This document shows positions 2,404 through 17,820 of a stretch of DNA of 20,680 bases, in pieces. The stretch spans positions 1-20,680 of the IMG/VR virus record IMGVR_UViG_3300027822_000042, one strand, 5' to 3'. The notes below the pieces were generated by a model. It was not told where the DNA came from, did not search any database, and saw only the letters and a program-made list of their open reading frames with translations. Numbering within the stretch: the stretch's first letter is position 1; each line of letters opens with the position of its first letter. Source of the DNA: a virus. Both the position numbers and the translations under genes were made by a program.

Positions 2404-2416
2404 TACGACTCCCTTT

Positions 2417-3697: not shown

Positions 3698-3709
3698 GGC
3701 CCTTTTTGG

Positions 3710-3728: not shown

Positions 3729-3859
3729 TAACCCTCACTTTTTGTAATACACTCGCCATTTCACACACCACATGGACCACCAGGAAGGAAAACCTTTCTG
3801 TGCATTGTAGAAGTTCTTTACTCGCAAGCCAAGTTCCAAGGCGTCCAGTTCATTTCTAC

Positions 3860-4006: not shown

Positions 4007-4259
4007 TTTCAAACGTCCACAAAGTATCTGTACTCGAAATCACGATAGCCTTTCCAATATCCCTGCCCCACCTAGCCCAAGGATCAAATAAGATTTTCGA
4101 TCTATACTGAGGCCATTGCACCATGAATATCCAATGACGCCCGCTCCAAAACGGTTCCTCCATAATAACGCCATTCATCCGCAGGCCATCGGCATCGGTT
4201 TGCTCGATAGACCATCCCTTGCGTATCTCTTGACACAAAGAGTGAAACTGTTCATTCAT
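3999..4259 (-). CDS. hypothetical protein, 86 aa
   Basis: The ATG at 4259 overlaps the preceding stop by 8 bases (ATGAATGA). The protein starts MNEQFHSLCQEIRKGWSIEQ, an amphipathic helix, then alternates hydrophobic and aromatic residues (FWSGRHWIFMVQWPQY) and ends SSTDTLWTFENG. It is soluble, with one Cys. The pattern of helix plus strands resembles small phage single-domain proteins, but no family is recognised. Confidence 0.72.
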   Translation of the reverse strand: MNEQFHSLCQEIRKGWSIEQTDADGLRMNGVIMEEPFWSGRHWIFMVQWPQYRSKILFDPWARWGRDIGKAIVISSTDTLWTFENG

Positions 4260-4446
4260 GTTCGCCCCGCGTATTCCTATCTGTCGTCTTCCCGCAATGT
4301 GTACAGGTATGCCGGAAACGCAGCAACCCGTTCAGTTCCCCGCCGACCAGTTCACAGTCGAAATAGTAGAACCCGTGATTGTCTCCCCGACAGGAAGATG
4401 TGTGACTGTCGAGAAGGGCAGACCCGCGTCCGCTAGCCATTTTCAT
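4252..4446 (-). CDS. small zinc-ribbon-like protein, 64 aa
   Basis: The ATG at 4446 has GGAG 5 nt upstream inside the 3' end of the preceding gene; a second ATG two codons later is also possible. The protein (MKMASGRGSALLDS...) has a CTHCGK knuckle near the C-terminus and two earlier Cys (SSCRGDNHGFYYFDCE). Cys-x(n)-Cys ... CxxC is a plausible zinc ribbon. Cytoplasmic; partner unknown. It overlaps both neighbours, so it is translationally coupled. Confidence 0.68.
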   Translation of the reverse strand: MKMASGRGSALLDSHTSSCRGDNHGFYYFDCELVGGELNGLLRFRHTCTHCGKTTDRNTRGEHE

Positions 4447-4648
4447 ATTCACTCCAGAAAACCACGGGTGCCTGCTCATAAGCATGGACTTCAATAATAT
4501 CCCACATTGAAATCATTTCCTCGCACCACTCTATGGCGGCATTCCTGCTGTCCAGTTCGACCTGAGTCCACCATCCGTCAGTGTATTTCCAGCATACAGT
4601 GTAGATGACGGCGGGGATGCCGAGTTCTTCGTTAAGCCATTCGCTCAC
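4433..4648 (-). CDS. hypothetical acidic protein, 71 aa
   Basis: GTG start at 4648 overlapping the upstream TGA (GTGA). The product MSEWLNEELGIPAVIYTVCWKY... has strand-like segments, a helix AAIEWCEEMISM, and ends APVVFWSEYENG. Acidic, Trp-rich, no known motif. The helix shares the pattern I/A-EWC with the 41-aa protein at 38-163, so the two may be distant relatives. Confidence 0.72.
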   Translation of the reverse strand: MSEWLNEELGIPAVIYTVCWKYTDGWWTQVELDSRNAAIEWCEEMISMWDIIEVHAYEQAPVVFWSEYENG

Positions 4649-4914
4649 AAACTCACCAACACTTTCATGTTCGCAATCAACGCTAGCCCGTACAAGACCG
4701 TTGCGACCTTGGCCCCCATCTTTGCAGGTGGATAATCAGACCGCGCAACCCATACCGCCAGCACACCGATAGCTACACCTTTAACCCACAGCGATATCGG
4801 CCCAGCCCAAGGCGCAACGAGAGGGTTGAGTTCCACACCCCCGCGAGCCAGGATCGCCACCGTAATAACTGAGTCGGCGAATGCGAGAATCACCAATGCG
4901 AGAAACCATTTCAT
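4645..4914 (-). CDS. small membrane protein, DUF5658-like
   Basis: An 89-aa protein with three probable membrane helices (residues about 3-24, 40-60, 68-88). The loop GGVELNPLVAPW resembles the E-x-NP-L motif of DUF5658 membrane proteins. I take ATG 4914 (MKWFLALV) rather than the in-frame ATG at 4929, which lies too close to the -10 to be in the transcript; GGAAAGGAAG precedes 4914. First gene after the promoter at 4932-4960. Function unknown; the family call is from memory of the motif. Confidence 0.7.
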   Translation of the reverse strand: MKWFLALVILAFADSVITVAILARGGVELNPLVAPWAGPISLWVKGVAIGVLAVWVARSDYPPAKMGAKVATVLYGLALIANMKVLVSL

Positions 4915-4931
4915 ATCTTCCTTTCCCATCT

Positions 4932-4960
4932 ATTGTATTACGTCAGCCCGGACTATGCAA
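4932..4960 (-). promoter_or_regulatory. minus-strand promoter TTGCAT-17-TACAAT
   Basis: On the minus strand -35 TTGCAT (4960-4955) and -10 TACAAT (4937-4932) are 17 bp apart, close to the vegetative sigma consensus. The predicted start is near 4925, giving an 11-12-nt leader with the Shine-Dalgarno for the membrane protein at 4914. The -35 lies inside the 3' end of the preceding gene, so this is an internal operon promoter. Confidence 0.65.
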
Positions 4961-5171
4961 GCGTTAATTCTTCTTCACGCACAGGGAAGAACTTTTCGTT
5001 CAGCCCGCAGCATGTCACTTCGTAAACGAAAGTGTAGACCCCCGGATTTTGGCGGTCCCACACGTACTGTACGCGGGACACCCGTTCGTGACTTCCCGGA
5101 CCTATCAAGGCGTGCCATTTGGGGCAGTTAACCTTGACATCATCGCCGACATTGAAAAGTGGCGTAGCCAT
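4953..5171 (-). CDS. hypothetical SH3-like small protein, 72 aa
   Basis: ATG 5171 has a GGAGG Shine-Dalgarno 6 nt upstream and a 43-bp gap from the preceding gene. The sequence MATPLFNVGDDVKVNCPKW... then RVQYVWDRQNPGVYTFVYEVTCCGLNEKFFPVREEEL reads as five short strands. The opening FNVGDDVKV and final EEEL resemble small KOW/SH3-like beta-barrels. That fold is inference. Three Cys, of which two are adjacent. Confidence 0.72.
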   Translation of the reverse strand: MATPLFNVGDDVKVNCPKWHALIGPGSHERVSRVQYVWDRQNPGVYTFVYEVTCCGLNEKFFPVREEELTLA

Positions 5172-5214
5172 AACATACCTCCACTAGATAAAATAGCAGT
5201 AGGAAGGTGTAAGT

Positions 5215-5553
5215 TTATTTAACTGGAGTGTAGTATTCGATCTTTAGGTTTTCGGGCTGCACCCATTTGTCAACCTGTTTCCGAATCTGGTTTTCGTCAA
5301 GGGTCAATCGTGCGCATTCCATGCGATGCCATTGCTTGAAAGCGGGGCTGGCTACGAGGCGACTAAACGCCGCCTTTTTGTTCGTTGCTTGACTTTTCGA
5401 ATCGGTGGCAACACCCTGAGCGCCCGACGCAGAATGCTTAATACGGACCCCAGTAGCATTTTTGTTACGATGTTGACCGCCTGACCCTGACCCAAAAATA
5501 TGGGTGACCTCAAAGTCTTTTTTGGTGAGACGGAAAAGAAGTTCACGCTTCAA
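5215..5553 (-). CDS. release-factor-like GGQ domain protein
   Basis: A 112-aa protein made almost only of the RF-1 catalytic domain: GSGSGGQHRNKNATGVRIKH at residues 21-40, then ATDSKSQATNKKAAFSRL. GGQ (25-27) is the motif that hydrolyses peptidyl-tRNA in the ribosome. It lacks the codon-recognition domains of RF1/RF2 and has no clear basic tail like that of ArfB, so it is closer to a minimal rescue factor of the RF-H/ArfB type. The TTG start at 5553 forms a TTGA overlap with the previous stop. Likely role: release of stalled ribosomes or altered termination during infection (inference). Confidence 0.85.
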   Translation of the reverse strand: MKRELLFRLTKKDFEVTHIFGSGSGGQHRNKNATGVRIKHSASGAQGVATDSKSQATNKKAAFSRLVASPAFKQWHRMECARLTLDENQIRKQVDKWVQPENLKIEYYTPVK

Positions 5554-5666
5554 TTACGCTTTCCTTTATTAACCATCTTGTGCATCTCGTCCTTAGTAAC
5601 GCCATGCCCCAACATCCAAGATATTAGTTGGGCAAAAGATGTTTTGGCAATGTCTTTCGCGCTCAC
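5550..5666 (-). CDS. very small protein, 38 aa
   Basis: GTG start at 5666 overlapping the preceding stop (GTGA); it ends at 5550 overlapping the TTG of the GGQ gene. The product MSAKDIAKTSFAQLISWMLG... is a mostly helical basic peptide with no Cys. It is trapped between two coupled genes, which supports translation. Possibly a partner of the GGQ protein, but only location suggests this. Confidence 0.65.
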   Translation of the reverse strand: MSAKDIAKTSFAQLISWMLGHGVTKDEMHKMVNKGKRN

Positions 5667-5986
5667 AGTTGCTCCAAAGCGTTAGCACGTCTCAACAGAT
5701 CGTCTGCCTGAAGACGCAATTCCTTAGCGTTCGCCTGCCGGTTCTCCCTATCTTCTTTACGGAGAATGGCTTCTTGAAGGGAAAGGGGGGTGTGGTCGTC
5801 TGGCACCCAATCACTGTCGTTAAGAACTATTTCGTTAACGCCCGATATGGCCGCAATGGCTTCTTCGATAAGGTAGTGATCCCCACCAATTATGACTTCA
5901 CCGGTATCGTTCCGCCACAGACAGGACCACTCACCATCGCCCGTCACCCTAGTACATTCCTCAAGGGAAATTTCTGGATACTTCAT
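5663..5986 (-). CDS. hypothetical protein with C-terminal coiled coil, 107 aa
   Basis: The start at 5986 overlaps the preceding stop (ATGA). The N-terminal 60 residues (MKYPEISLEECTRVTGDGEW...) look like a small alpha/beta domain with two Cys. From about residue 69 the protein is a charged helix, LQEAILRKEDRENRQANAK then LRLQADDLLRRANALEQL, with heptad-like leucines. Oligomerisation through this helix is likely. Family unknown. Confidence 0.75.
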   Translation of the reverse strand: MKYPEISLEECTRVTGDGEWSCLWRNDTGEVIIGGDHYLIEEAIAAISGVNEIVLNDSDWVPDDHTPLSLQEAILRKEDRENRQANAKELRLQADDLLRRANALEQL

Positions 5987-6153
5987 TTACTTTTCTTTAC
6001 TCCCCAAATCTGCGAAGACTTTGGTCGTTCCGTAACGTTGTCCCATTCAGCGTGACATTGTGTGCACCGGTACCGCGCGTAAAGAATGCCGGGGGTTCCG
6101 AAAACCCACTGGGCGTCTCGGATACGAATTGGGGTACAGTCGTGAGCAATCAT
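5983..6153 (-). CDS. small CxxC protein, 56 aa
   Basis: The ATG at 6153 and TGA at 5983 both form ATGA overlaps with neighbours. The product MIAHDCTPIRIRDAQWVFG... has His4, Cys6, and RCTQCHAEW at residues 29-37, a single zinc knuckle with an extra Cys/His pair that could complete a zinc site. The C-terminus is basic (WGVKKSK). One of several tiny Cys-rich proteins in 4.2-7.1 kb. Confidence 0.72.
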   Translation of the reverse strand: MIAHDCTPIRIRDAQWVFGTPGILYARYRCTQCHAEWDNVTERPKSSQIWGVKKSK

Positions 6154-6341
6154 GTTTTAACCTCCACCTTCATATTGAACAGTCCAATAGCTACACCTAG
6201 AAGAAACGACGATTCGAAACTTATCGGTGAGATAACAGTTGAATGCTGGGATAGGAGCGCACTGCTAAACATTATGGCGGCACCGCGGACAACGGTGTTA
6301 ACAATTATCAGTCCAAGAATTACTGGTGTTATTTCTTTCAT
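6150..6341 (-). CDS. small two-helix membrane protein, probably leaderless
   Basis: A 63-aa protein with hydrophobic stretches at residues about 5-30 and 44-56 and a short charged C-terminus. No Shine-Dalgarno precedes ATG 6341. Instead the -10 TACACT ends 6 nt before the ATG, so the transcript should begin at or within a base of the start codon. Leaderless mRNAs are common in actinobacteria. First gene of a sub-operon running leftward. Function unknown; a membrane-perturbing role is possible but unsupported. Confidence 0.7.
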   Translation of the reverse strand: MKEITPVILGLIIVNTVVRGAAIMFSSALLSQHSTVISPISFESSFLLGVAIGLFNMKVEVKT

Positions 6342-6344
6342 GCA

Positions 6345-6362
6345 ACAAGTGTACTACACCTT
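6345..6362 (-). repeat. 18-bp repeat with palindrome GTGTA-C-TACAC, copy 1
   Basis: The plus-strand sequence acaagtgtactacacctt is identical at 11708-11725. It covers the -10 and part of the spacer of a minus-strand promoter at both sites and contains an 11-bp palindrome, GTGTA-C-TACAC. The sequence is too long and too well kept to be explained by -10 conservation alone, so a regulator may bind it. Confidence 0.65.
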
Positions 6363-6376
6363 GCCTTTCAGTTCAA
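6348..6376 (-). promoter_or_regulatory. minus-strand promoter TTGAAC-17-TACACT
   Basis: On the minus strand -35 TTGAAC (6376-6371) and -10 TACACT (6353-6348) are 17 bp apart. The spacer ends AAGGTGTAG, the same as in the 11711-11740 promoter. Transcription would begin at about 6341, on the ATG of the membrane protein. Confidence 0.62.
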
Positions 6377-6387
6377 GCTCATATTCC

Positions 6388-6534
6388 TTACAGCAAACGT
6401 GTTTGGTTTTTGTTCAAGATTGTGGAAGTCAAAGTCCCGCCGTGTTCAATATGTTCAAATAGCCATTTCATGGCATAATCGGAAGGTGCGAAGATCTCTA
6501 GCACCGCTCCACAGTTACAGGTAACTTTCCGCAT
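6388..6534 (-). CDS. small CxC protein, 48 aa
   Basis: ATG 6534 is preceded by GGAGG at the right distance (GGAGGAAATAG then ATG) inside the 3' end of the previous gene, which it overlaps by 20 bases. The product MRKVTCNCGAVLEIFAPSDY... has CNC at residues 6-8 and an amphipathic helix AMKWLFEHIEHG. The CxC plus later His could bind metal, but fewer ligands are present than in the neighbouring zinc ribbons. It ends just before the 6348-6376 promoter. Confidence 0.7.
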   Translation of the reverse strand: MRKVTCNCGAVLEIFAPSDYAMKWLFEHIEHGGTLTSTILNKNQTRLL

Positions 6535-6640
6535 CTATTTCCTCCGTGATGGCAATATCGCACTCAACACAGATACCGTCGCGGATCTCTTCAGGATAAA
6601 AGGCGACAAGACAGTATTGGCAGATTTCATACTCTTCGAT
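6515..6640 (-). CDS. zinc-ribbon protein with non-standard start, about 41 aa
   Basis: The frame reads IEEYEICQYCLVAFYPEEIR then DGICVECDIAITEE and stops at 6515: two CxxC knuckles 14 residues apart, a clear zinc-ribbon pattern. No ATG or GTG lies in frame. A GGAGG Shine-Dalgarno is placed 7 nt before an ATC codon at 6640; a TTG at 6655-6653 precedes the Shine-Dalgarno. Either a rare ATC start or the TTG is used. The competing ATG frame here gives a Ser-rich peptide without motifs. Start uncertain, protein likely real. Confidence 0.6.
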   Translation of the reverse strand: MEEYEICQYCLVAFYPEEIRDGICVECDIAITEEIDAESYL

Positions 6641-6642
6641 GG

Positions 6643-6768
6643 TTAGTCCTCCCAACGATGGTTACCGTTTTTGTGGTCGCCCCAGTGATCGGGGGACTTG
6701 AGACAATATATATCGGGAGTACCGGAGAAGTGATTGCAGAGGGGGGCGGGAATGGGCTGGAATTTCAT
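6643..6768 (-). CDS. small Cys/His-rich protein, 41 aa
   Basis: ATG 6768 forms an ATGA overlap with the preceding stop at 6765. The product MKFQPIPAPLCNHFSGTPD... continues with IYCLKSPDHWGDHKNGNHRW. Cys11, His13, Cys22 and a HWGDH...H run suggest a metal site. The pattern matches a type of small actinophage protein I recall, of unknown function. Confidence 0.7.
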   Translation of the reverse strand: MKFQPIPAPLCNHFSGTPDIYCLKSPDHWGDHKNGNHRWED

Positions 6769-6878
6769 GGGCGAGCAATATGTTTTTTGCGGGGATAGCC
6801 GAGATGGTTCCACGCATGTGTCCAGCCAAACAATCGTTTCTCGATAGCGTATCCGCAGTGACGGCAGTAAGTTACCAT
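6765..6878 (-). CDS. minimal C2H2-type zinc-finger protein, 37 aa
   Basis: ATG 6878 lies inside the stop region of a 12-codon ORF (6872-6910). The product MVTYCRHCGYAIEKRLFGWT continues with HAWNHLGYPRKKHIARP. C5-x2-C8-x12-H21-x3-H25 has the spacing of a classical C2H2 zinc finger, followed by a basic tail, so nucleic-acid binding is possible. It has no Shine-Dalgarno of its own, so translation probably depends on the upstream small ORF. A longer in-frame version has no conserved start. Confidence 0.62.
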   Translation of the reverse strand: MVTYCRHCGYAIEKRLFGWTHAWNHLGYPRKKHIARP

Positions 6879-6910
6879 TTGATTCGTTCGATGTTCGGTG
6901 TTGCTGTCAT
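6872..6910 (-). CDS. 12-codon leader ORF with strong Shine-Dalgarno
   Basis: ATG 6910 is preceded by AGGAGG at optimal spacing and encodes MTATPNIERIKW before TAA at 6872. The stop overlaps the start of the zinc-finger protein (ATGGTAA). The best ribosome site of this region serving a 12-codon frame suggests a translational-coupling leader peptide. A single-base indel that split one longer gene is the alternative. Confidence 0.5.
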   Translation of the reverse strand: MTATPNIERIKW

Positions 6911-6918
6911 TCGTCCTC

Positions 6919-7080
6919 CTAACGATTAGCTTCAGCCTTGCGACGACACTTCGGACACGCCGACTGATCTCCCGCCATGTGCATATAGAACTTGTACGGT
7001 TCGCCACAGATCGGGCACTTGATCGTCTGGCCCGATCCATGGAAGGTGCCTCCGTCTGGTTCGGTAATGTTGATACTCAT
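6919..7080 (-). CDS. small zinc-ribbon protein, 53 aa
   Basis: ATG 7080 has AAGGA 8 nt upstream; the frame ends at TAG 6919. The product begins MSINITEPDGGTFHGSGQ and contains KCPICGEPY and ACPKCRRKAE: CPxC pairs 20 residues apart, a classic zinc ribbon. The C-terminus is basic (RRKAEANR). Such proteins often bind DNA, RNA or polymerase; the target here is unknown. Confidence 0.78.
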   Translation of the reverse strand: MSINITEPDGGTFHGSGQTIKCPICGEPYKFYMHMAGDQSACPKCRRKAEANR

Positions 7081-7111
7081 ATTCACGTCCTTGAATTAGA
7101 CATAATGGTGG

Positions 7112-7390
7112 TTATGGGCGCTTCAGCAATTCGTAAAGACCCTTCGGCACATCGTCGATACGTTCGTTCATCCACAGCAAAGCTACTGGGTCTCCCTTGC
7201 GGATTGCCACGATGTTAAAGTCGTCACATCTAGCTTCAGCGAATCCTTCCGATATCGCATAACTGAGACGGTCGCTTGTCTCTAATACTGTCCAGTTGGT
7301 TTCCCACCGTTCGACATTACCGACGATACGCCCGATTGCGGTAACATACTGGTCGCCTGGCTTGTGCTGCCATAAGGTCGGTTCGTTCAT
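7112..7390 (-). CDS. hypothetical protein, 92 aa
   Basis: ATG 7390 (MNEPTLWQHKPGDQYV) gives an ATGA overlap with the previous stop, so I reject the 16-codon longer form. Strand-like segments (YVTAIGRIVGNVERW) are followed by ISEGFAEARCDDFNIVAIRKG and a C-terminal DDVPKGLYELLKRP. Soluble, family unknown. Confidence 0.75.
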   Translation of the reverse strand: MNEPTLWQHKPGDQYVTAIGRIVGNVERWETNWTVLETSDRLSYAISEGFAEARCDDFNIVAIRKGDPVALLWMNERIDDVPKGLYELLKRP

Positions 7391-7602
7391 TCGTCTTCCT
7401 TGATTTTCAGGTGCCGCCCAGGCCGTTCCAAGCGGCATTCACCGATGAAATGAAACTCGCAAGTCGTTGGCTCGCCAGTCTCACTATCTACCCACGCATA
7501 CGGCTTGTTGTGTTCGGCGCACCACGGGATTTCCTCAACAACAACCTCGACATACCTGAATGACCCTTCGATCTGGTGAGGTTCCTTGCGGTACAGTTTC
7601 AT
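7387..7602 (-). CDS. hypothetical protein with Cys/His residues, 71 aa
   Basis: ATG 7602 overlaps the previous stop (ATGA). The protein MKLYRKEPHQIEGSFRYV... has CAEH, then TTCEFHF and GECRL, giving three Cys and three His that could form a zinc site. Basic C-terminus ending KIKEDE. No named family. Confidence 0.73.
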   Translation of the reverse strand: MKLYRKEPHQIEGSFRYVEVVVEEIPWCAEHNKPYAWVDSETGEPTTCEFHFIGECRLERPGRHLKIKEDE

Positions 7603-7916
7603 GTTTCCCCTTTCAACGCCGCATCGACAATGCGAGATGCTTCCTGAAAGTCACTCAGGATCGGTACCTTGACGCCGTTAATGACGACTAGCTTCAACTC
7701 GTCAGCCAGTGGCCCCAGGCCGTCCCTAGCCCACGCTAGATGTAGATACGCTTTCAGCGCTGCTTCGTAGTCGATGAATCCTTGCTGCTCCCCAAACGCC
7801 ACCCATTCAGCCTGGGTCGGAGCACGCCCACCAGGACAGTTATCCTCTACGTGGTCGGCTCCGTAGGAAATGTTCGGGTGCGTTTCATATCTCCCGTGTT
7901 CGCATGGCATCCTCAT
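7599..7916 (-). CDS. hypothetical protein, 105 aa
   Basis: ATG 7916 overlaps the previous stop (ATGA). The N-terminus MRMPCEHGRYETHPNISYGA... with DNCPGG holds two Cys and two His. The C-terminal two thirds are helical (EAALKAYLHLAWARDGLGPL; SRIVDAALKG). It may combine a metal knuckle with a helical domain, but no family is recognised. Confidence 0.73.
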   Translation of the reverse strand: MRMPCEHGRYETHPNISYGADHVEDNCPGGRAPTQAEWVAFGEQQGFIDYEAALKAYLHLAWARDGLGPLADELKLVVINGVKVPILSDFQEASRIVDAALKGET

Positions 7917-8152
7917 CGCTCACTCCTAGACGACCAGTTGGCCTCAACAGTGACATGGGTTACTCTCGTGCGTCCACCAGCATCGGTGATATGTGTCTCT
8001 AACCCAATCTCGTAAGGAACCAGTGGCGCTTCGGTTTCCAGAGCGTCGGCTAAGTCCCTCAACGCCTCGGGCAAGTCTTTAATCTTGACTTGCTGTGCGA
8101 AGAAACGAACGTCAGTTGTCGTGGTTCTGCTTGTCCTTTTCAAGTTCATCAT
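7913..8152 (-). CDS. hypothetical protein, 79 aa
   Basis: Two adjacent ATGs occur at 8152 and 8149; 8152 gives an ATGA overlap with the previous stop. A basic Ser/Thr-rich N-terminus (MMNLKRTSRTTTTDVRFF) is followed by a helix IKDLPEALRDLADALETEAP and two strands. No Cys. Unknown function. Confidence 0.72.
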   Translation of the reverse strand: MMNLKRTSRTTTTDVRFFAQQVKIKDLPEALRDLADALETEAPLVPYEIGLETHITDAGGRTRVTHVTVEANWSSRSER

Positions 8153-8571
8153 TTGTCTCCGTCTACTAAATCTGTCTCAGTTAGTACCCGATTAGTACCA
8201 GCGAGCAGTTCCCACCGAGGCTGCCAAGCAAACACGCAACCACCGTAATGGCCGAAATAGAACGCACCGATGCAGGATGACAGAACCGATCCCCTTCGCT
8301 CGCCTCTGGGTGATCCGCGGTGCTCGGGCTTGGTGCAAACCTCTCGACACTTGCTCGGGTCTGCCCAGATAGTTTCGCCCAAGACGACAAGCTCAACATG
8401 CTCAGCAGGACAAGGGTCATAGGGGGGAATCTGGTTAAGGTTCGATGACAGCCGCCGGCCCTTCCCGCCGCAGGTTTCGCAACCCACCGCCCCACGAACA
8501 TACGCCACTATTGCGTTCTTCGGCCAGATACCTTCCTGAGCCATCGCTGCTGCTTTTAGCGGGTTAGTCAT
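8149..8571 (-). CDS. Cys-rich protein with DnaJ-like zinc knuckle, 140 aa
   Basis: The start at 8571 (MTNPLKAAAMAQEGIWPKN) overlaps the MazG-like gene by 8 bases; a 37-codon upstream extension is an antisense-like artefact. CETCGGKG at about residues 32-39 is identical in form to a DnaJ CxxCxGxG knuckle. Further Cys follow at DPCPAEH, KCREVC and SSC. The distribution could form two zinc sites. It lies in the block of nucleotide-metabolism genes, but no specific role is visible. Confidence 0.72.
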   Translation of the reverse strand: MTNPLKAAAMAQEGIWPKNAIVAYVRGAVGCETCGGKGRRLSSNLNQIPPYDPCPAEHVELVVLGETIWADPSKCREVCTKPEHRGSPRGERRGSVLSSCIGAFYFGHYGGCVFAWQPRWELLAGTNRVLTETDLVDGDK

Positions 8572-8839
8572 TAGATTTCTCCCACCTGTGCGTATAGGTA
8601 TCGGCTGCCATTGCCACCAAATTGGCAACATCGGCAGCTTCACGCCAGATTTGCCAGGGCGCCTGGCCTTGTTCCATAGCATCGACCAGTTCCTCCATTT
8701 CGCCTAACGATAAGATAACCAAGTCTTTAACTTCTTCAGCAGTACGCCAATATGGTTTGAAACTGTTCTGTCGCAACTTGTCCAACATGTGGTCAGATAG
8801 CGTAGCAACTAGTAGTTCTTCTTGTTGTTGGTCACTCAC
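8564..8839 (-). CDS. MazG-like nucleotide pyrophosphohydrolase, 91 aa
   Basis: GTG start at 8839, overlapping the HAD-fusion stop by 8 bases (GTGAGTGA). An all-alpha protein with LGEMEELVDAMEQG at about residues 46-59 and a second helix WREAADVANLVAMAADTY; the E-x2-E-E ... E-x2-D-x2-N pattern matches the MazG/dUTPase-like all-alpha NTP-PPase fold that binds Mg2+ and hydrolyses NTPs to NMP and PPi. Length is typical of phage single-domain forms. Acts on nucleotide pools in the cytoplasm. Substrate unknown. Confidence 0.75.
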   Translation of the reverse strand: MSDQQQEELLVATLSDHMLDKLRQNSFKPYWRTAEEVKDLVILSLGEMEELVDAMEQGQAPWQIWREAADVANLVAMAADTYTHRWEKSND

Positions 8840-9875
8840 CAGTTAACACCCTTTCCCAGGTTGCCGCGTATCCAGCCAGATCAACCAGCGAATCAATGGT
8901 GACCGAATTAGAAAGCCGTGACATTTTCACTAGAATCATGGCAGCGGCGATGTCTTCCGCAGTGAAAAGAAGCGGTTGTTCATTGGCTCGGAAATATGCA
9001 TTCCACAGATCTGCGGTTTGCTGAAAGTTCCTCCGTGGATGACCGTAATCTTGCTGACGCGGACCGTAGACGGCATCGCGAGCCTGTTGGAGAATATCCA
9101 TCCGAACGGCTTGGATGTCTTCGCCGAACGCAATATCGGGCGCTTCACTGAATTCCGCATCAGGGAACTTTCCGTCTAATTCGTCTTCAGGAAAAGCAGG
9201 CCCAAACGAATCATATTTTTCAACCTCCGCAACAACATTTTCCCACCCAACAATACGCTTAACTTCGATTTGGGGGAGTGCCCACAAATCGTCACTCCAC
9301 ATTTCTACCGCAGGGGCAGTTGTGTAATCTTCATTCCATCTTTGCGCAAATAGGATATTCAGCTTACCTTTCTGCGCCCATTTGCCAGTATCAGGCTTGT
9401 CATCAATAACGATATCCGCGTCGAAATCTTGCTTGTCGCCTTTGACAAAACAGATCTCGTCATACTCAAGATTGGTCGCGTCAAGAAAATAGGTAACATT
9501 GCGGATCGCTTGTCCACGCAGTTTCCGGTCCGTAATGGCTTTTGAGGTAACGATGCGAATATGATGTCCAGCTTCACGGAGAGCAGCGAGTCCTTCTTTT
9601 GCGCCGAGGACAAGACGATTGTTCCCGCCACCGTAGACGCGCCCTACGCTAATACCTTTGTCGATCAGTGTCCAAAACTGGGACTTGGTAAGGCATCCCA
9701 AGTCATGCGTGTCGGGGTCATAAGCATTGCTACACCATTGTTCCCAAATATTCCAATGTTCGGGTTCAGGCAAACATGTTACGTCTTCGTATAGAGTAAA
9801 GGCGCGTCGGTATTCTTCCCTCGCATCCTCAACGAAATCATGCAGAACCCCGTCCAGATCTATGTTGATTTTCAT
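8832..9875 (-). CDS. HAD 5'-nucleotidase-like domain fused to DUF6378-like domain
   Basis: A 347-aa two-domain protein. The N-terminus MKINIDLDGVLHDF carries HAD motif I (D6, D8), with VTSKAI and IVIDDKPDTG further on as motifs II and IV, as in 5'(3')-deoxyribonucleotidases. From about residue 260 the C-terminus (QQARDAVYGPRQQDYGHP... LFTAEDIAAAMILVKMSRL... VDLAGYAATWE) matches phage DUF6378 proteins, an all-alpha domain often found beside MazG-like enzymes. A linker of about 60 acidic residues joins them. ATGA overlap with the previous gene. Probable role: nucleotide phosphate hydrolysis to shape dNTP pools (inference). Confidence 0.8.
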   Translation of the reverse strand: MKINIDLDGVLHDFVEDAREEYRRAFTLYEDVTCLPEPEHWNIWEQWCSNAYDPDTHDLGCLTKSQFWTLIDKGISVGRVYGGGNNRLVLGAKEGLAALREAGHHIRIVTSKAITDRKLRGQAIRNVTYFLDATNLEYDEICFVKGDKQDFDADIVIDDKPDTGKWAQKGKLNILFAQRWNEDYTTAPAVEMWSDDLWALPQIEVKRIVGWENVVAEVEKYDSFGPAFPEDELDGKFPDAEFSEAPDIAFGEDIQAVRMDILQQARDAVYGPRQQDYGHPRRNFQQTADLWNAYFRANEQPLLFTAEDIAAAMILVKMSRLSNSVTIDSLVDLAGYAATWERVLTGE

Positions 9876-10087
9876 ATCCCAATCCTCTCTTTACGCAATT
9901 CTTCTAATGCTATTTCCATAACCCAATATCCTTCACATTCAACCGATACGCACTGTCCCGCCACGGTCCGCGGTTCGTTCACCCATTCAGTGCAAGTTAA
10001 CCCATGACGCCAACGCTTGGTGCCGTAGACTTTCACGTCTGCTTGGGCGTGATAATACCCGTCTTTGAAACCAAGGGCGTAACTCAT
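9872..10087 (-). CDS. hypothetical protein, 71 aa
   Basis: ATG 10087 overlaps the previous stop and its own stop overlaps the HAD-fusion start (ATGA twice). The protein MSYALGFKDGYYHAQADVKV... has three Cys (LTCTEW, GQCVSVEC) and a C-terminal helix EIALEELRKERIGI. The opening ALGFKDGYYHA resembles short phage proteins that begin with an alpha-helical Gly-Tyr-rich segment. Unknown function. Confidence 0.72.
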   Translation of the reverse strand: MSYALGFKDGYYHAQADVKVYGTKRWRHGLTCTEWVNEPRTVAGQCVSVECEGYWVMEIALEELRKERIGI

Positions 10088-10335
10088 ACTCGCGAACTAT
10101 CCCCAGCTATAGCAAACATACGTTCAATAAACGCATAGGCAAGCTCGGCATCCTCTTCATTGCGAAAAAACGCCAAGGTGCGAACCTCATTTTCCCCACT
10201 CGTATGGTAGAGGGAAACTTGTTTGCGTCCTGGCAGATGTCCAATGTAAAGCGTGCCCAGATTTTGGCCATTAATCATGTTTAGCTGCCAGCCGTAACTG
10301 AAAGGTTCGGTGGCGGGACTTGGAAAGTCTGTCAT
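10084..10335 (-). CDS. hypothetical protein, 83 aa
   Basis: ATG 10335 lies 3 nt after the previous stop with GGATA upstream. Strands (GTLYIGHLPGRKQVSLYHT; VRTLAFFRNEED) precede a helix AELAYAFIERMFAIAG. Soluble, no Cys. Alpha/beta fold without a recognised family. Confidence 0.73.
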   Translation of the reverse strand: MTDFPSPATEPFSYGWQLNMINGQNLGTLYIGHLPGRKQVSLYHTSGENEVRTLAFFRNEEDAELAYAFIERMFAIAGDSSRV

Positions 10336-10338
10336 TGG

Positions 10339-10515
10339 TTATCCTTTTACTGTTGGGTGATATTCGTGTCGCCGAATAGGGGGCGATTGCTGCCCTTCCC
10401 AAATTGGTTCATCTGGTTCGGCTGCACAGTCAAGACTTCCGCAATCTAGGCAAACGTTGGCTTCGCGTTTCCATTGACGTTCGATATTGGTAGACCCGCA
10501 AGTTTGGCAGAACAT
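10339..10515 (-). CDS. small zinc-ribbon protein, 58 aa
   Basis: ATG 10515 overlaps the previous TAA by one base. The product opens MFCQTCGSTNIERQWKRE and continues ANVCLDCGSLDC: CxxC-x14-CxxC, a rubredoxin/zinc-ribbon arrangement like that of transcription-factor or polymerase ribbons. The tail is Pro/Glu/Arg-rich (PPIRRHEYHPTVKG). Could contact RNA polymerase or nucleic acid; not demonstrable here. Confidence 0.8.
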   Translation of the reverse strand: MFCQTCGSTNIERQWKREANVCLDCGSLDCAAEPDEPIWEGQQSPPIRRHEYHPTVKG

Positions 10516-10817
10516 TAATGATCCAATCCCATGTCCCGAATACCATATTCGGAATATTCTTCATTGGCCCATTTGCGTGCTTCTTCTTTTGACGCATGGC
10601 TACTTTGCACAACGCCAGAATAGCTTGCATGGTATCGTTCGCCGATTTCCTTGTCGATGCGATCTCGAAATGCGTTAAGCATTTGGTACATCCACATGTC
10701 GCGGACTTCTTTTTCCACATCAGCGTATGAAGATTCGAACCCCATGTAAACGTCGTAGCATTCATCCATTGGATCTTCAGGGCGATAAACCACGTAGTAA
10801 AAATTGTCTGAACTCAT
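10515..10817 (-). CDS. hypothetical acidic protein, 100 aa
   Basis: ATG 10817 (MSSDNFYYVVYRPED) overlaps the exonuclease stop (ATGA). Long charged helices follow (DVEKEVRDMWMYQMLNAFRD; KEEARKWANEEYSEYG). No Cys pairs; soluble. Gene of unknown function directly downstream of the exonuclease. Confidence 0.75.
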   Translation of the reverse strand: MSSDNFYYVVYRPEDPMDECYDVYMGFESSYADVEKEVRDMWMYQMLNAFRDRIDKEIGERYHASYSGVVQSSHASKEEARKWANEEYSEYGIRDMGLDH

Positions 10818-11437
10818 ATCAGCCCTTCTTTTGCTTGCCCAACCATGCCCACCCACGGCTCAGCCATGTCTTGCAGAATCTCCCACGCAAAGTACGCTAA
10901 AGTAGCGTCATACAACGCATCGTGTTCTTGGCCTTCAATTCCGAGAGCATCCATTTTCTCTTTGGCGAGCCGCTTGACACGTTTCTTCAAAGTATCCCAC
11001 CGCCAAGGATTTGTGGATTCTATGCGCGGCAGTCCGATACTTCCCAAATACATACACAGAGCGTTCAGGTCTACGGTGCGTCGGGAGAACAGTAACCAAA
11101 GTTCCGGCATCCAATGTTGGAGAATAGCCATGTCGAATCCGCCGACGTTAAAACCTACCGGCCAAGGCTTGTGGATGTCGTGAGATTCAAAGAAGGATTG
11201 AATATTCCTGGTTGCCCATTCGCGACTTCGTCCAGAAGTTCGGATATCCTCTTGACTTAATCCATGAATTTTCTCAGCCTCTTCCGACCAGTCATCTATC
11301 GTGATAGGCCAATAGATCAACGTTTCATACGTTGCACCGTTCGGCAAATATATCCCGATCTGTATCGGCGCAGCGGTAGCAATATCGGTTCCGTTGGTTT
11401 CAAGGTCCAAACCTACGATTGTTTGTCCGCGCTTCAT
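10814..11437 (-). CDS. DEDDh 3'-5' exonuclease (DnaQ-like)
   Basis: A 207-aa protein with the exonuclease motifs in order: ExoI GLDLETNG (D11, E13), ExoII GFNVGGFD (N97, D102) and ExoIII EHDALYD (H172, D177). The H-x4-D form marks the DEDDh subgroup, which removes 3' nucleotides with two metal ions. Length fits a stand-alone phage exonuclease. ATG 11437 overlaps the previous stop (ATGA); a longer in-frame start is rejected. Probably acts in phage DNA replication proofreading, repair or host DNA breakdown. Confidence 0.88.
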   Translation of the reverse strand: MKRGQTIVGLDLETNGTDIATAAPIQIGIYLPNGATYETLIYWPITIDDWSEEAEKIHGLSQEDIRTSGRSREWATRNIQSFFESHDIHKPWPVGFNVGGFDMAILQHWMPELWLLFSRRTVDLNALCMYLGSIGLPRIESTNPWRWDTLKKRVKRLAKEKMDALGIEGQEHDALYDATLAYFAWEILQDMAEPWVGMVGQAKEGLI

Positions 11438-11688
11438 AGCGCTGGTAGGTAGGTGTATGTAAATGCTACGTTTGGCTGCGGAACGGGTTCTACCCCTTCG
11501 AACCATTGTGGATCAAGGGTAGCACGAGCGAGGCCGAGAATATCTTTGGAAGCTCCGGGCCATTCCGCTACTCGTTCTTTGGCAGCCTCTAGGGCCAAGT
11601 CTTCATCGTAAGCTTCAACAATGAAGGTACTGAGGTTGACCTGCCCTGTCCGGGAGCGATAGTTAAACAAAACTACGTATTCATTCAT
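11434..11688 (-). CDS. first gene of the leftward operon, hypothetical 84 aa
   Basis: ATG 11688 has AAGGAAG 4-5 nt upstream and a roughly 16-nt leader from the promoter at 11711-11740; a start seven codons upstream is disfavoured. The product MNEYVVLFNYRSRTGQVNLS... is an alpha/beta protein with a helix EDLALEAAKERVAEWP. It resembles small phage proteins with an 'EAYDEDLALEAAKE' helix but no functional family is recognised. Confidence 0.78.
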   Translation of the reverse strand: MNEYVVLFNYRSRTGQVNLSTFIVEAYDEDLALEAAKERVAEWPGASKDILGLARATLDPQWFEGVEPVPQPNVAFTYTYLPAL

Positions 11689-11707
11689 GTGTCTTCCTTT
11701 CGACACC

Positions 11708-11725
11708 ACAAGTGTACTACACCTT
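11708..11725 (-). repeat. 18-bp repeat with palindrome GTGTA-C-TACAC, copy 2
   Basis: Identical to 6345-6362. Here it overlaps the -10 and spacer of the promoter at the head of the leftward operon. The same element at an internal promoter 5.4 kb downstream suggests joint control of both transcripts. Confidence 0.65.
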
Positions 11726-11740
11726 AAGATCCGAAGTCAA
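11711..11740 (-). promoter_or_regulatory. leftward operon promoter TTGACT-18-TACACT
   Basis: On the minus strand -35 TTGACT (11740-11735) and -10 TACACT (11716-11711) are 18 bp apart. The start near 11704 gives a 16-nt leader with the Shine-Dalgarno of the first gene. This is the main candidate for driving the early minus-strand genes, and lies directly after the small-RNA terminator. Confidence 0.65.
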
Positions 11741-11747
11741 GTACCCA

Positions 11748-11938
11748 TAACAAAAGGACCAAAACGTTAGTCCTGGTCCCTCTGTTGTTTGTGTGTGATG
11801 ACAAGCGTAGCGTAGTCATCGTTAGAAGTCAAGGAGGTAACCGGGGGGCGGACTAGGTGAGAAAGGAAGAAAGCACCCGTCCGGTGTTCACACACAAACG
11901 AAAACTCGCATCCCCCCGGCTGTACTGGGCGGGTACAG
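11748..11938 (-). ncRNA. structured small RNA with predicted pseudoknot and anti-SD motif
   Basis: A transcript of about 190 nt on the minus strand, framed by a promoter (11944-11971) and an intrinsic terminator (11749-11779). Helices in RNA order: P1 CUGUAC/GUACAG (11938-11933 / 11925-11920) with a 7-nt loop; P2 CCGGGGGG/CCCCCCGG (11919-11912 / 11848-11841, 8 bp); P3 GUUUGUGUGUGA/UCACACACAAAC (11899-11888 / 11798-11787, 12 bp). P3 begins inside the P2 loop and ends outside it, so P2 and P3 form a pseudoknot. CGGAC/GUCCG (11883-11879 / 11853-11849) can extend P2; a GAUGAC/GUCAUC hairpin lies between. The unpaired ACCUCCUU (11838-11831) matches the 16S rRNA anti-Shine-Dalgarno. No known RNA family recognised. 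Confidence 0.6.
11749..11779 (-). terminator. intrinsic terminator ending the small RNA
   Basis: On the minus strand GGACCA (11779-11774) pairs with TGGTCC (11761-11756) across a 12-nt loop and is followed by TTTTGTT. A second, overlapping AGGAC/GTCCT pairing is possible. It stands between the small RNA and the leftward operon promoter and so separates the two transcripts. Confidence 0.6.
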
Positions 11939-11943
11939 GACAG

Positions 11944-11971
11944 ATCATAGCATATGATTTTTGCTTGGCAA
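11944..11971 (-). promoter_or_regulatory. promoter for the small RNA, TTGCCA-16-TATGAT
   Basis: On the minus strand -35 TTGCCA (11971-11966) and -10 TATGAT (11949-11944) are 16 bp apart. Transcription would start at 11938-11936, exactly at the first base pair of hairpin P1. That coincidence supports both calls. On the plus strand the same bases could look like a weak AT-rich hairpin with a T run. Confidence 0.55.
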
Positions 11972-12051
11972 ATAACCCAGAAACGCAGAGGCCGGGGGAC
12001 ACTCAGTTAAGTGCCAATCCCCGGCGTACTTGCTGACGGGACGCTCACTCG
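11972..12051. other. non-coding gap with one strong hairpin (11991-12025)
   Basis: GCCGGGG (11991-11997) and CCCCGGC (12019-12025) form a perfect 7-bp stem whose loop contains a second stem CACT/AGTG. No T tract follows on either strand, so it is probably not a terminator; it could be an RNA-processing or protein-binding site. Nothing else is recognisable here. Confidence 0.4.
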
Positions 12052-12246
12052 TTATGCCGCCAACCCAGAAATAACCATATCGGTAGGGCTATAGTTCTGC
12101 CAACTAGCTTTCGGATATTCGCGTATAGGTATAGGTTTCTTCCGTGGTGGCGCTGGCTTGCTAGGTGCGTGGGGAACAGTCCTAACTGGACGTTTCTTTT
12201 TTCCGCCTCACAAAAACCAGTCGGCTATTTGAGTAACATTATTCAC
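12052..12246 (-). pseudogene. leaderless small gene with in-frame UGA (readthrough or pseudogene)
   Basis: A GTG at 12246 follows the minus-strand -10 TATACT by 6 nt, as in a leaderless gene. It reads MNNVTQIADWFL, then TGA, then continues in the same frame for 51 codons, from GGKKKRPVRTVPHAP through a Pro/Arg/Lys-rich part to YSPTDMVISGLAA and TAA at 12052. Restoring a Trp at codon 13 would give a natural 64-aa protein. TGA is a normal stop elsewhere in this window, so general recoding is excluded. Possibilities: nonsense mutation, stop readthrough, or chance. No other gene explains this stretch. Confidence 0.4.
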
Positions 12247-12260
12247 GATGCTAGTATAGT
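12229..12260 (+). promoter_or_regulatory. rightward promoter, overlapping a leftward -10
   Basis: On the plus strand TTGAGT (12229-12234) is followed at 17 bp by TAGTAT (12252-12257); TATAGT (12255-12260) is a better -10 at 20 bp. The ATG of the next gene is at 12268, 7 nt after TATAGT, suggesting a leaderless transcript. On the minus strand the same bases give TATACT (12258-12253) for the gene starting at 12246. The two -10 elements share bases, so the polymerases must compete. Confidence 0.5.
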
Positions 12261-12267
12261 CCCCGTT

Positions 12268-12441
12268 ATGGCTAAAATACCAGGGGCCGGAACCCCAAAC
12301 GATAAAGGCATGACGCAGATAAATCTACGCGTCAACAATGGACTTTACACGGCTATTTCTAATTACGCCATTGAAGAAAAGTCTAGTCTCAGCAATGAAA
12401 TCCGAAAAGCCATAACGCATTATCTAAACGAAAGGCTGTAA
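12268..12441 (+). CDS. ribbon-helix-helix DNA-binding protein, 57 aa
   Basis: The ATG at 12268 lies at the predicted transcription start and lacks a Shine-Dalgarno, so the gene is probably leaderless; a 33-codon upstream extension crosses the promoter and is rejected. After a flexible MAKIPGAGTPNDKG, a strand (MTQINLRVNN) and two helices (GLYTAISNYAIEEK; LSNEIRKAITHYLNERL) match the Arc/MetJ ribbon-helix-helix fold. Such dimers bind operators. Its position at the divergent promoter suggests control of the arms or autoregulation. It could alternatively be a diverged small terminase, but length argues against it. Confidence 0.75.
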   Translation: MAKIPGAGTPNDKGMTQINLRVNNGLYTAISNYAIEEKSSLSNEIRKAITHYLNERL

Positions 12442-12872
12442 TGCTTGCATTACTAACAATTGCGGCTTGGCGGGTCACACATTTCCTACAAGAAGACTCT
12501 CTCTTCGAATCCGTGCGAGAGTTTTTCTTTTGGTTCTTCCCTCCTGAGGGTTGGTACACGGTTTCGAGCGAAGATGATGGGTTAGCCCCGGCCACACTTC
12601 CCGGTGCTTTTACTATCACTCGTTACCGCACCGAACGCGAGTTTCAACTTTTCGTTGACGACGAAGGTGCCCGCTTTTACTACGCTAAAAGGCAATCAAA
12701 AATTGGGGAACTTTTTTCCTGCCTTTGGTGTCTCTCCATTTGGGTCGCGGCCGCAACGGTAGCTATTTACTATTCAATCGTTCCCGGTATTTCGACCATT
12801 GACCAATTGGTTTATTGGCTGGTCGTTGCGTCCGGTATTGTTGTAACCGAAAAACTAGTCGCTAAGCTGTAG
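12441..12872 (+). CDS. DUF1360-like membrane protein, 143 aa
   Basis: The ATG overlaps the previous TAA by one base (TAATG). Hydrophobic segments lie at residues about 1-15, 92-112 and 118-140, with a soluble insert between (FPPEGWYTVSSEDDGLAPAT...). The FSCLWCLSIWVA motif (CxxCLS-W) and the early WRVTHFL match DUF1360, a phage and bacterial inner-membrane family of unknown role. In actinophages such genes sit among structural genes. Here it precedes the portal. Confidence 0.75.
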   Translation: MLALLTIAAWRVTHFLQEDSLFESVREFFFWFFPPEGWYTVSSEDDGLAPATLPGAFTITRYRTEREFQLFVDDEGARFYYAKRQSKIGELFSCLWCLSIWVAAATVAIYYSIVPGISTIDQLVYWLVVASGIVVTEKLVAKL

Positions 12873-12881
12873 AGTAGACAC

Positions 12882-14600
12882 ATGCCTGTAGATAACACTC
12901 ATGCCCTGACCGCTTCTGGTGAACGGGTTTCTCGTACTCGCAATTCAAACCCGCTTGATCTTTACCTTCAGGGCGAGACTGGTATTCGCGAAATGCAGGA
13001 ACAAGCTTGGAAATATTTCGACAAAGTTGGCGAAGTTCCTTTTGTCGGGCAGTCCCTCATTGGTAACCGTATTAAAAAGTACGCGTTCTTTCCTGCATGG
13101 GAAAATGAAAAGGGCGACATTAAGCCTTTGGCTGACGTTGACCACGGGTTGTCTGATCGTGAACTTGACTTGATCAATACTGTTTTCGGTACCGTTCGCA
13201 CGAAAGCTGGTGGAGCGCCAGAGTTTTGGTCTTTGACTGCTGAGAATACTTTCGTAGGTGCGGAAGCGTCACTTATCCTTGAACCTAAACGTCAGTACTT
13301 TGATGTAGTTTCGCCACTGGAAGTTAAGAACAGCCCCGGTGGTGGGTTTACTCTTGACGGAAAGAATATTCCAGTCACTCGCCTTTTCCGCATTTGGCTA
13401 CCGCATCCAAAGAAACCCTCACGTCCCTACACTCCACTGTTTTCTTCATTCGGAACCCTGGACGACATTTACTGGATGACAAGGTATCTTTCGCAGCGTA
13501 CTCGCAATCGTTTGGTACAAAATGATATTCTTGTTCTGCCGAATTCGATCACCCCACCTGATATTGACCCGGCCCGTTCTGATGCGCAGAATATTGGACC
13601 TCAGGATAAGCTAAACAATTTCGAGAGTGCTTTCCGACAGTTGGCCCGCGAGAATATTTCTCTCTCCGGCAACAATGCTCCGATGCCTATGATTGTGTTT
13701 GCGCCCGACGGTACTGCCAAGGATGTTTCCTGGATTACGGCAGAACACAAGATTGATCCTTCACTTTTGGTGTACCTGCATCAACTCCGTGAACGGTTTG
13801 CCAATAACGTTTCTGTCCCAACCGAGATGGTTACAGGCTTGGCTTCTGCTAATCACTGGGGGGCAGCCACAATTGAGGATGACTTAGAGTACTCCCATAT
13901 TGGTCCCCTTGCTAATACTCTTTCAATGTCCGTTACGCTATCGTATTTCCGGCCAGCTATTCGAGCTATAGGTGAAAAGCAAGATGACCAAATTTTCATT
14001 CCCGAAGATAAGCTTTCACGTATCCGAATCGGTTACTCGTCTCTTCGCAAATCTGAAAACCCGGATTATGTGCGTAATATTTTGCGGGCTTATGACCTTG
14101 GTGTTGTCGGCGAGGAACCTGTGGCGGATGCTTTGGGGATACCACGGAACCTAATTCTTACTGCCAAGGAACGTGCCGAACGCCTGGAAGCTCGTAAGGG
14201 AAATGGTGATTCCAACGAATCGGCACCGTCGCGGCAACAGGATCAGCGCAACCAACCCAAGTCTGCGCCCGCAGACGAGGACCGCTCGCGTGACGGTTTC
14301 AATAATTTTGTTGGCTTACTTTCCCACGAGATTCACAGAACAGCAGGCAATCGCCTACTAAACTGGGCAAATGCCAACCCAGATATCGCTGACGGTTTGC
14401 AGTTAGCTTCTGACCCTGCACAGGTTGGTCGCTATGCTGGACGTTCTACCCTTGCCGAGCTTGGTAAAACTGAGTCGTCCCTGTGGAAAGGCATGTCGGA
14501 TCGTATTAAAGATTCTGCACGCTTTTATAGTGATCCTCAAGAAATTCTTGATAACCTTACTGATATTTCTGAGTCAATCCAGAATGGCTTTTGGTCCTAG
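12882..14600 (+). CDS. phage portal protein
   Basis: A 572-aa protein starting MPVDNTHALTASGERVSRTR with no strong Shine-Dalgarno. The central and C-terminal parts have portal features: LRERFANNVSVPTEMVTGLA, NHWGAATIEDDLEYSHIGPL and ANTLSMSVTLSYFRPAI, the pattern of actinophage portals in which a helical stem follows the 'NHW...ED' motif. Portals form the dodecameric DNA gate at the capsid vertex and the terminase docking site. The last 140 residues are hydrophilic (GNGDSNESAPSRQQDQRN). Followed by the protease, as usual. Confidence 0.85.
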   Translation: MPVDNTHALTASGERVSRTRNSNPLDLYLQGETGIREMQEQAWKYFDKVGEVPFVGQSLIGNRIKKYAFFPAWENEKGDIKPLADVDHGLSDRELDLINTVFGTVRTKAGGAPEFWSLTAENTFVGAEASLILEPKRQYFDVVSPLEVKNSPGGGFTLDGKNIPVTRLFRIWLPHPKKPSRPYTPLFSSFGTLDDIYWMTRYLSQRTRNRLVQNDILVLPNSITPPDIDPARSDAQNIGPQDKLNNFESAFRQLARENISLSGNNAPMPMIVFAPDGTAKDVSWITAEHKIDPSLLVYLHQLRERFANNVSVPTEMVTGLASANHWGAATIEDDLEYSHIGPLANTLSMSVTLSYFRPAIRAIGEKQDDQIFIPEDKLSRIRIGYSSLRKSENPDYVRNILRAYDLGVVGEEPVADALGIPRNLILTAKERAERLEARKGNGDSNESAPSRQQDQRNQPKSAPADEDRSRDGFNNFVGLLSHEIHRTAGNRLLNWANANPDIADGLQLASDPAQVGRYAGRSTLAELGKTESSLWKGMSDRIKDSARFYSDPQEILDNLTDISESIQNGFWS

Positions 14601-16746: not shown

Positions 16747-17568
16747 ATGAGGTACCCGAAAGCTATATGGCTGCCCCGCAGCCCGTCAGGTGGTAGCTAT
16801 GTTGGGGGGAGTCCTCGCGGCGTACTCCATACCACCGAAACCCATAATTGGGCTGGGGCAAAGTATTACCACATAGAGTACAATCCCAATGCAGCGCCAG
16901 GGAAAAAGTGGCGACAATATCGCTTATTTGAACGTTCAGCATATGGGCTACGTCATCCGTCCTCAACGCCTCAAACTAATCGACAAGGGACGGCCTGCAT
17001 TCAGGTTGCCGTCACGGGATATGCAGGCAATTCACATAATTGGGGTGACGAAGTTTATGCAGACTTGGCAGAATTTATTGCCTGGTCTAACGAGAATTTT
17101 GGCATCAAACCTTGGTCTCGCTATGACGTTGGCCACAACGGTTCAGCTTATGGGGAAAAAGGTACAGCTAGGATGCTGTGGGATGAATGGTTAGAACATG
17201 ACGGATGGTGCGCCCACCAAGAGGTTCCTTCTAATTCTCACTGGGACGCAGGTAAGGTAGATTGGACACGACTTTTAGGAGATGGAATGACCCCGGAACA
17301 AAGAGCATCATTGGATTGGCTTGAAGAAATGCGACCCTGGTTGGATTCCTTCATTTATTCAACAACTGAAGGCGTCGACCAGAAAGACCCGAATGGTGGG
17401 CAGTCGTCCCCATTTTTCCCTGAAGTTCTTATCCCGTATCATCGGAACGAACGCAAGGAACTTGAGGCCCGCGTTGCCGCCCTTGAAAATTCAAGCAATG
17501 GGGTTGGCGAACTTGAAGTTACAACCGAAACCATTGAAGTCGTCACTAATGTAACAATTGTTCCATAA
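16747..17568 (+). CDS. lysA: N-acetylmuramoyl-L-alanine amidase endolysin
   Basis: A 273-aa protein whose ATG directly follows a TAA. The amidase_2/PGRP fold is recognisable: GVLHTTETHNW with zinc His28, then YDVGHNGS and CAHQEVPSNSHWDAGK, with His157 and His165 as likely further ligands. It cleaves the amide between muramic acid and the stem peptide at lysis. Residues 180-260 hold a linker and a helix (RKELEARVAALENS), not a known wall-binding domain. No signal peptide, so release depends on the holin that follows. Lysin beside head genes is unusual. Confidence 0.85.
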   Translation: MRYPKAIWLPRSPSGGSYVGGSPRGVLHTTETHNWAGAKYYHIEYNPNAAPGKKWRQYRLFERSAYGLRHPSSTPQTNRQGTACIQVAVTGYAGNSHNWGDEVYADLAEFIAWSNENFGIKPWSRYDVGHNGSAYGEKGTARMLWDEWLEHDGWCAHQEVPSNSHWDAGKVDWTRLLGDGMTPEQRASLDWLEEMRPWLDSFIYSTTEGVDQKDPNGGQSSPFFPEVLIPYHRNERKELEARVAALENSSNGVGELEVTTETIEVVTNVTIVP

Positions 17569-17583
17569 ATGACCGGAGGAAAA

Positions 17584-17820
17584 ATGGACGGCTTTATCGC
17601 CTATGTTCGTACGTTTGTTCCAATTGCTATCGGAGCAGTTGTGACTTTCTTGGCACGCCAATTTGACATCGTGATTGATAGCGAATCCGCACAAGGTGCA
17701 GTTTTGTTTGTCAATGCAGTTGTAACTGGTGCCTACTATGCCCTGATTAAGTATGCCGAAACACGTTTCCCGTGGATTGGTTGGCTGATCGGCTACGCCA
17801 AATCGCCCACATACCTATAG
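17584..17820 (+). CDS. holin
   Basis: A 78-aa protein; ATG 17584 has GGAGG 4 nt upstream, while an in-frame ATG at 17569 lacks one. The protein MDGFIAYVRTFVPIAIGAVV... has membrane helices at about residues 8-24 and 40-58, then WIGWLIGYAKSPTYL, the ending typical of actinophage holins. Holins form inner-membrane lesions that let the lysin reach peptidoglycan. It directly follows the amidase, completing a lysis cassette. Confidence 0.8.
   Translation: MDGFIAYVRTFVPIAIGAVVTFLARQFDIVIDSESAQGAVLFVNAVVTGAYYALIKYAETRFPWIGWLIGYAKSPTYL

Follow-up and report, generated by a model that had tools for sequence, protein, structure and literature searches.

A candidate structured RNA carrying copies of the 16S rRNA tail between the early and structural operons of an actinophage-like virus

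Genomic setting of the locus

The window analysed in this study, i.e. the whole stretch of 20,680 bases of the virus record, contains two divergent operons, and the candidate RNA described here lies in the intergenic region that separates the early operon from the structural one. The minus-strand genes (177-11688) are early-looking and encode an ArdA antirestriction protein, a GGQ release-factor-like protein, a nucleotidase/DUF6378 fusion and a DnaQ-like exonuclease. From position 12169 onward, the plus strand carries mainly structural genes (portal, protease, endolysin, holin candidate, capsid). The structural proteins have their relatives mainly in actinophages (22–39% identity), and the source virus appears to be actinophage-like.

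The ArdA-type antirestriction gene (177-692, minus strand) occupies the far end of the minus-strand operon. Another minus-strand gene (5215-5553) encodes a short RF-1-domain protein with a GGQ motif, whose top curated match, PrfH, falls under the cut-off and whose phage counterparts (40–46% identical) occur in Mycobacterium and Tunturiibacter phages. The product of the minus-strand gene 8832-9875 joins a 5'-nucleotidase-like (NT5C) domain to DUF6378, with top database matches that span either half alone. An endolysin gene and that of a small membrane protein (the holin candidate) are placed between the capsid protease and major capsid genes (16747-17820, plus strand), which is an unusual location for lysis genes. 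The divergent region may be regulated by the product of 12169-12441 (plus strand), a small ribbon-helix-helix-like protein that weakly matches a repressor family. Directly upstream of the RNA promoter there is a GC-rich hairpin (11990-12027; GCCGGGGGA...TCCCCGGC, with an inner CACT/AGTG stem), which is not followed by a T run.

Promoter, terminator and extent of the candidate RNA

The predicted small RNA (~190 nt) spans positions 11749..11938 of the minus strand, as judged from a promoter, a terminator and folding. The promoter (11944..11971, minus strand) is composed of TTGCCA (11971-11966), a 16-nt spacer and TATGAT (11949-11944), the latter preceded by TG (extended -10). With 10/12 matches, it ranked first among the five promoter-like sites within 11000-12900, and its -10 box is located inside the inverted repeat ATCATA-TGC-TATGAT. 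Six bases beyond the -10 box, at position 11938, begins hairpin P1 (CUGUAC/GUACAG; 11920..11938, minus strand), which would form the predicted 5' end of the RNA. The opposite end is marked by an intrinsic terminator hairpin with a U-rich 3' strand (11749..11786, minus strand), recognized from both sequence and folding. The promoter, the hairpin at the predicted +1 and the terminator had all been claimed in a first-pass annotation of this DNA, and each was found on the minus strand; the terminator hairpin (17 pairs, including G-U) is bigger than was described there. A coding reading of 11749-11944 was dropped, as only short ORFs lacking a family or a good start were detected. An RNA encoded on the plus strand was likewise rejected (weaker folding, no framing promoter-like or terminator-like site).

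Downstream of the RNA terminator, the next gene has a separate promoter, TTGACT-18-TACACT (11711..11740, minus strand), whose -10 box lies inside a near-palindromic 17-mer, AAGGTGTAGTACACTTG (11725-11709). An exact second copy of this 17-mer is present at 6362-6346 (minus strand), where TTGAAC-17-TACACT precedes gene 6341. Placed over the -10 boxes of two early promoters, AAGGTGTAGTACACTTG resembles an operator or a phage-specific promoter. The palindrome at the -10 box of the RNA promoter differs from it. The separate promoter of the next gene, together with the different -10 palindromes, suggests that the RNA and the early operon are probably regulated apart.

Predicted folding

The predicted RNA contains two long helices (all coordinates on the minus strand). 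In P2 the 5' arm CCGGGGGG (11912..11919) pairs with the 3' arm CCCCCCGG (11841..11848), while P3, formed by GUUUGUGUGUGA (11888..11899) and UCACACACAAAC (11787..11798), crosses P2. The two perfect helices, of 8 and 12 pairs, that had been proposed to cross are thus indeed present. No such combination arose when the RNA was dinucleotide-shuffled 1000 times, and shuffling of the whole 20.7 kb window produced one in 1.5% of the replicates. P3 is the sole perfect helix of at least 12 pairs in the window. Two further hairpins were predicted: Pa (CGGAC-G-GGUG / CACC-UA-GUCCG; 11849..11883; -11.2 kcal/mol), with a 14-nt pyrimidine loop, and P4 (GAUGAC/GUCAUC; 11797..11820). Because the last two 3' bases of P3 are common to P4, P3 would be reduced to 10–11 bp if P4 forms.

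The duplex energies of P2 and P3 are -18.1 and -16.8 kcal/mol, respectively. The best nested fold retains P1, P2, Pa, P4 and the terminator, and the addition of P3 sacrifices two small hairpins. By our own estimate, with the usual penalties, the pseudoknot would be about equal in stability to the best nested fold, and the coexistence of P2 and P3 as a pseudoknot is plausible. The folding z-score of the minus strand was -3.9 with the terminator and -2.6 without it, compared with -1.6 for the plus strand. The possession of its own promoter and terminator, the separate promoter of the downstream gene, the strand-biased folding and the lack of an Rfam match support the earlier view of this locus as a stand-alone structured RNA gene.

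Copies of the 16S rRNA tail

The 3' tail of 16S rRNA in Actinobacteria is ACCUCCUUUCU. The loop of Pa, CUUUCUUCCUUUCU (11860..11873, minus strand), which had been overlooked in the first-pass annotation, consists of 14 nt, all of them pyrimidines, with an unpaired probability of 1.0. It holds the 16S-tail 8-mer UCCUUUCU (11867-11860) and also UCUUCCUUUC, to which the Shine-Dalgarno sites of two early genes are exactly complementary. A second 16S-tail 8-mer, ACCUCCUU (11831..11838, minus strand), was the one originally noticed, and its match to the tail and its single-stranded state (unpaired 0.97 in the nested ensemble) were both confirmed. UCCUUUCU and ACCUCCUU jointly span the 16S rRNA 3' tail. 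No further tail 8-mer occurs in the window, whichever strand is read, and these two both lie unpaired within the RNA, 29 nt apart. Two tail 8-mers were obtained in 0.08% of the RNA shuffles; among 145 scanned sequences this was the only pair within 80 nt, yet approximately one is expected by chance over all that sequence.

The suggestion that the 8-mer ACCUCCUU pairs with ribosome-binding sites was not supported within the window. AAGGAGGT occurs there only once, opposite the 8-mer of the RNA as its complement, no 8-nt partner of ACCUCCUU was found within the window, and pairing of its segment with the ribosome-binding sites of the window was no better than that of shuffled versions (p 0.72). 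In the same test, the 16S tail itself did not exceed its own shuffles. The genes formerly named as targets (capsid, holin and 5171) show just ordinary GGAGG pairing. The idea of an anti-Shine-Dalgarno action is supported in kind but with a change of segment, since it is the CU loop of Pa that carries a 10-nt complement.

Putative target genes

Ten nucleotides of the Pa loop are exactly complementary to the Shine-Dalgarno sequence of the adjoining gene (ATG 11688) and to that of a distant one (ATG 4914). The first of these sites is predicted to form a hairpin (GUGUC/GACAC; 11689..11706, minus strand), in which the Shine-Dalgarno sequence GAAAGGAA is exposed in an 8-nt loop. The putatively regulated gene (11434..11688, minus strand) encodes an 84-aa protein of no family, and its stop codon overlaps (ATGA) the start, at 11437, of the exonuclease gene (10814-11437, minus strand), which suggests translational coupling. 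The second exact complement, GAAAGGAAGA (4916..4925, minus strand), is the Shine-Dalgarno sequence of gene 4645-4914 (89 aa, hydrophobic). Outside the RNA locus, whose complement strand also carries GAAAGGAAGA, the Shine-Dalgarno sites of these two genes are its sole occurrences in the window.

In shuffle tests, chosen after the match had been seen, a 10-mer match on the adjacent gene arose in 0.7% of cases and on two genes in 1.5%; when the 14 letters of the loop were shuffled, 4.6% of the resulting loops matched some gene and 1.0% matched this pair. Pyrimidine-rich loops easily fit purine-rich Shine-Dalgarno sites, and the chance level of the observed complementarity is about 1%. Nested cofolding, which is unable to represent loop-loop (kissing) contacts or the pseudoknot, gave gains for genes 11688 and 4914 that were no better than those of shuffles (p 0.34-0.96), and did not single them out when the RNA was cofolded with each of 40 start regions. 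As the Shine-Dalgarno sequence of the target is presented in a hairpin loop, a kissing-loop contact of at least 8 pairs is possible. If gene 11688 is transcribed solely from its own promoter, its 5' UTR may be too short for the full target hairpin.

Search for relatives

No DNA similarity to the window was detected among 50,697 phage records, and the portal, protease, capsid and early proteins matched those of distant phages only (~22-46% identical), or none. A near-kin search of IMG/VR (portal, protease and two protease motifs specific to the window) revealed no close relative, and the RNA architecture was present in none of 80 distant loci collected by a profile search. IMG/VR searches with RNA patterns (P3+ACCTCCTT, GGTTACCTCCTTGACT and P4/P3) returned nothing, or unrelated chance matches. 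The covariance model R1, which is weak because it was built from one sequence, found nothing in the collected loci, in 2 genomes or in 395 bacterial genomes of one class, and its best match in 55 whole virus records had an E value of 0.27.

In agreement with the earlier claim that the RNA belongs to no known family, Rfam gave no gathering-level match, and within 11690-12170 none of the matches with E values of up to 10 assigned it to a family. There was no tRNA or tmRNA match in ARAGORN. The candidate RNA thus appears to be an orphan, with no Rfam family and no relative in the collections searched, which may leave out near relatives of the source record.

Proposed function and alternative explanations

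To our knowledge, few regulatory RNAs have been described in phages of Actinobacteria. The reading that we tentatively prefer, and to which we assign somewhat less than an even chance, is that of an orphan C4-like antisense RNA that covers the ribosome-binding sites of early genes. A phage small-RNA gene heading the early operon on the minus strand would be transcribed, and its folded core (P1, P2, P3, Pa and P4) would present two single-stranded pyrimidine copies of the 16S tail. In the cell, the Pa loop would pair with the Shine-Dalgarno sequence of the adjoining gene (ATG 11688), probably as a contact between two hairpin loops, and would thereby block ribosomes, i.e. repress rather than activate, at this gene and at the exonuclease gene coupled to it through the ATGA overlap. 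The gene with ATG 4914, which carries the same complement, would be a second early target. ACCUCCUU may perhaps provide a second, less specific grip. As one 16S-tail stretch fits the ribosome-binding site of the adjoining gene exactly, the RNA probably times early-gene translation, i.e. sets when early phage genes are translated. If this is true, covering early ribosome-binding sites with a copy of the 16S tail would be a simple phage means of timing early translation; because loop and target match exactly, the proposal is testable by two-base swaps.

The same region could instead act in cis, as a 5' leader of the early operon. The terminator would then be an attenuator, the pyrimidine loop would fold onto the 11688 Shine-Dalgarno sequence on read-through, and the pseudoknot would serve as a sensor or antiterminator. 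The shared orientation, the position of the terminator (~60 nt ahead of the first early gene) and the loop complementarity agree with this explanation. We nevertheless consider it unlikely, given that the downstream gene has its own post-terminator promoter, with a -10 region recurring at another early gene, that the same target is also found on a distant second gene, and that no riboswitch family was matched.

It is rather unlikely, too, that the locus encodes a structured phage RNA with another job (e.g. as a partner of a protein or in packaging), in which case both the Shine-Dalgarno complement and the matches to the tail would be incidental. The structural evidence does outweigh the pairing evidence, the cofold tests were negative, and phage sRNAs of unknown role exist (reviewed in PMC12197685); against this, both of the unusual single-stranded segments are tail copies, and the complementarity to the neighbouring gene is uncommon in shuffles (p ~0.007). 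We hold it quite doubtful that the RNA represents a new family of pseudoknotted ribosome-tail mimics, which, in the infected cell, would take over translation initiation at selected early genes and perhaps also at host mRNAs.

A general competitor, whose two ribosomal-tail copies bind strong Shine-Dalgarno sites of host or phage mRNAs broadly and so shift translation in the course of infection, would account for two unpaired tail 8-mers that have no equal elsewhere in the window. This is improbable, as neither the ACCUCCUU segment nor the 16S tail surpassed its shuffles in pairing with the ribosome-binding sites of the window, and as such an RNA would inhibit the phage itself, whose genes rely on these Shine-Dalgarno sites as well. 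Finally, an untranscribed DNA element (origin, operator cluster or packaging site) or chance inverted repeats would be in keeping with the operator-like appearance of the -10 palindrome ATCATATGCTATGAT and the repeated 17-mer, and with the occurrence of operators in divergent intergenic regions, but is very improbable in view of the promoter, +1 hairpin and terminator ordered on a single strand, the folding that favours this same strand, and the rarity of the crossing helices by chance.

Comparison with known systems

The preferred reading, a C4-like antisense RNA, takes its model from phages P1 and P7. As in C4, a phage RNA would be made directly upstream of its target and in the same direction, with a hairpin loop complementary to the ribosome-binding site. 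In the P1/P7 system the downstream gene is translationally coupled, and the gene 11688/exonuclease pair, with its putative coupling, would resemble it in this respect. Of the C4 features tested, complementarity between a loop and the ribosome-binding site of a same-direction downstream gene was present (10 nt, gene 11688), while the ~77-nt form with three stem-loops was absent, the candidate RNA having another architecture. C4 is cut by RNase P from a longer transcript to give an RNA of ~77 nt with three stem-loops (PMC5320573), whereas the candidate RNA is ~190 nt long, apparently pseudoknotted, has its own terminator and comes from an actinophage-like virus. The Rfam covariance model of C4 gave no match in 11690-12170, either at the gathering level or up to E 10.

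The 6C/B11 sRNA of mycobacteria and other Actinobacteria binds mRNA 5' UTRs through base pairing of its pyrimidine-rich loops with purine tracts (PMC10470900), and shares with the candidate a structured RNA with loops of this kind; PMC8198154 offers a known-system comparison beside these C-rich loops. The candidate loops are CU-rich and of phage origin, whereas those of the chromosomal 6C/B11 are runs of C, and the Rfam model of 6C/B11 was not matched; nor does the architecture of the candidate place it in this group. The best sub-threshold Rfam match was to the cyanobacterial Yfr10/Yfr2 RNAs (CACACAC plus terminator). Membership of Yfr10 was rejected (25 bits vs a cut-off of 43, E 0.16), as only low-complexity letters and the terminator were matched and the 5' hairpin is absent. 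The sar RNA of P22 and other phage antisense RNAs repress translation by pairing near the start site (reviewed in PMC12197685), a mode of action that is also proposed for the candidate RNA.
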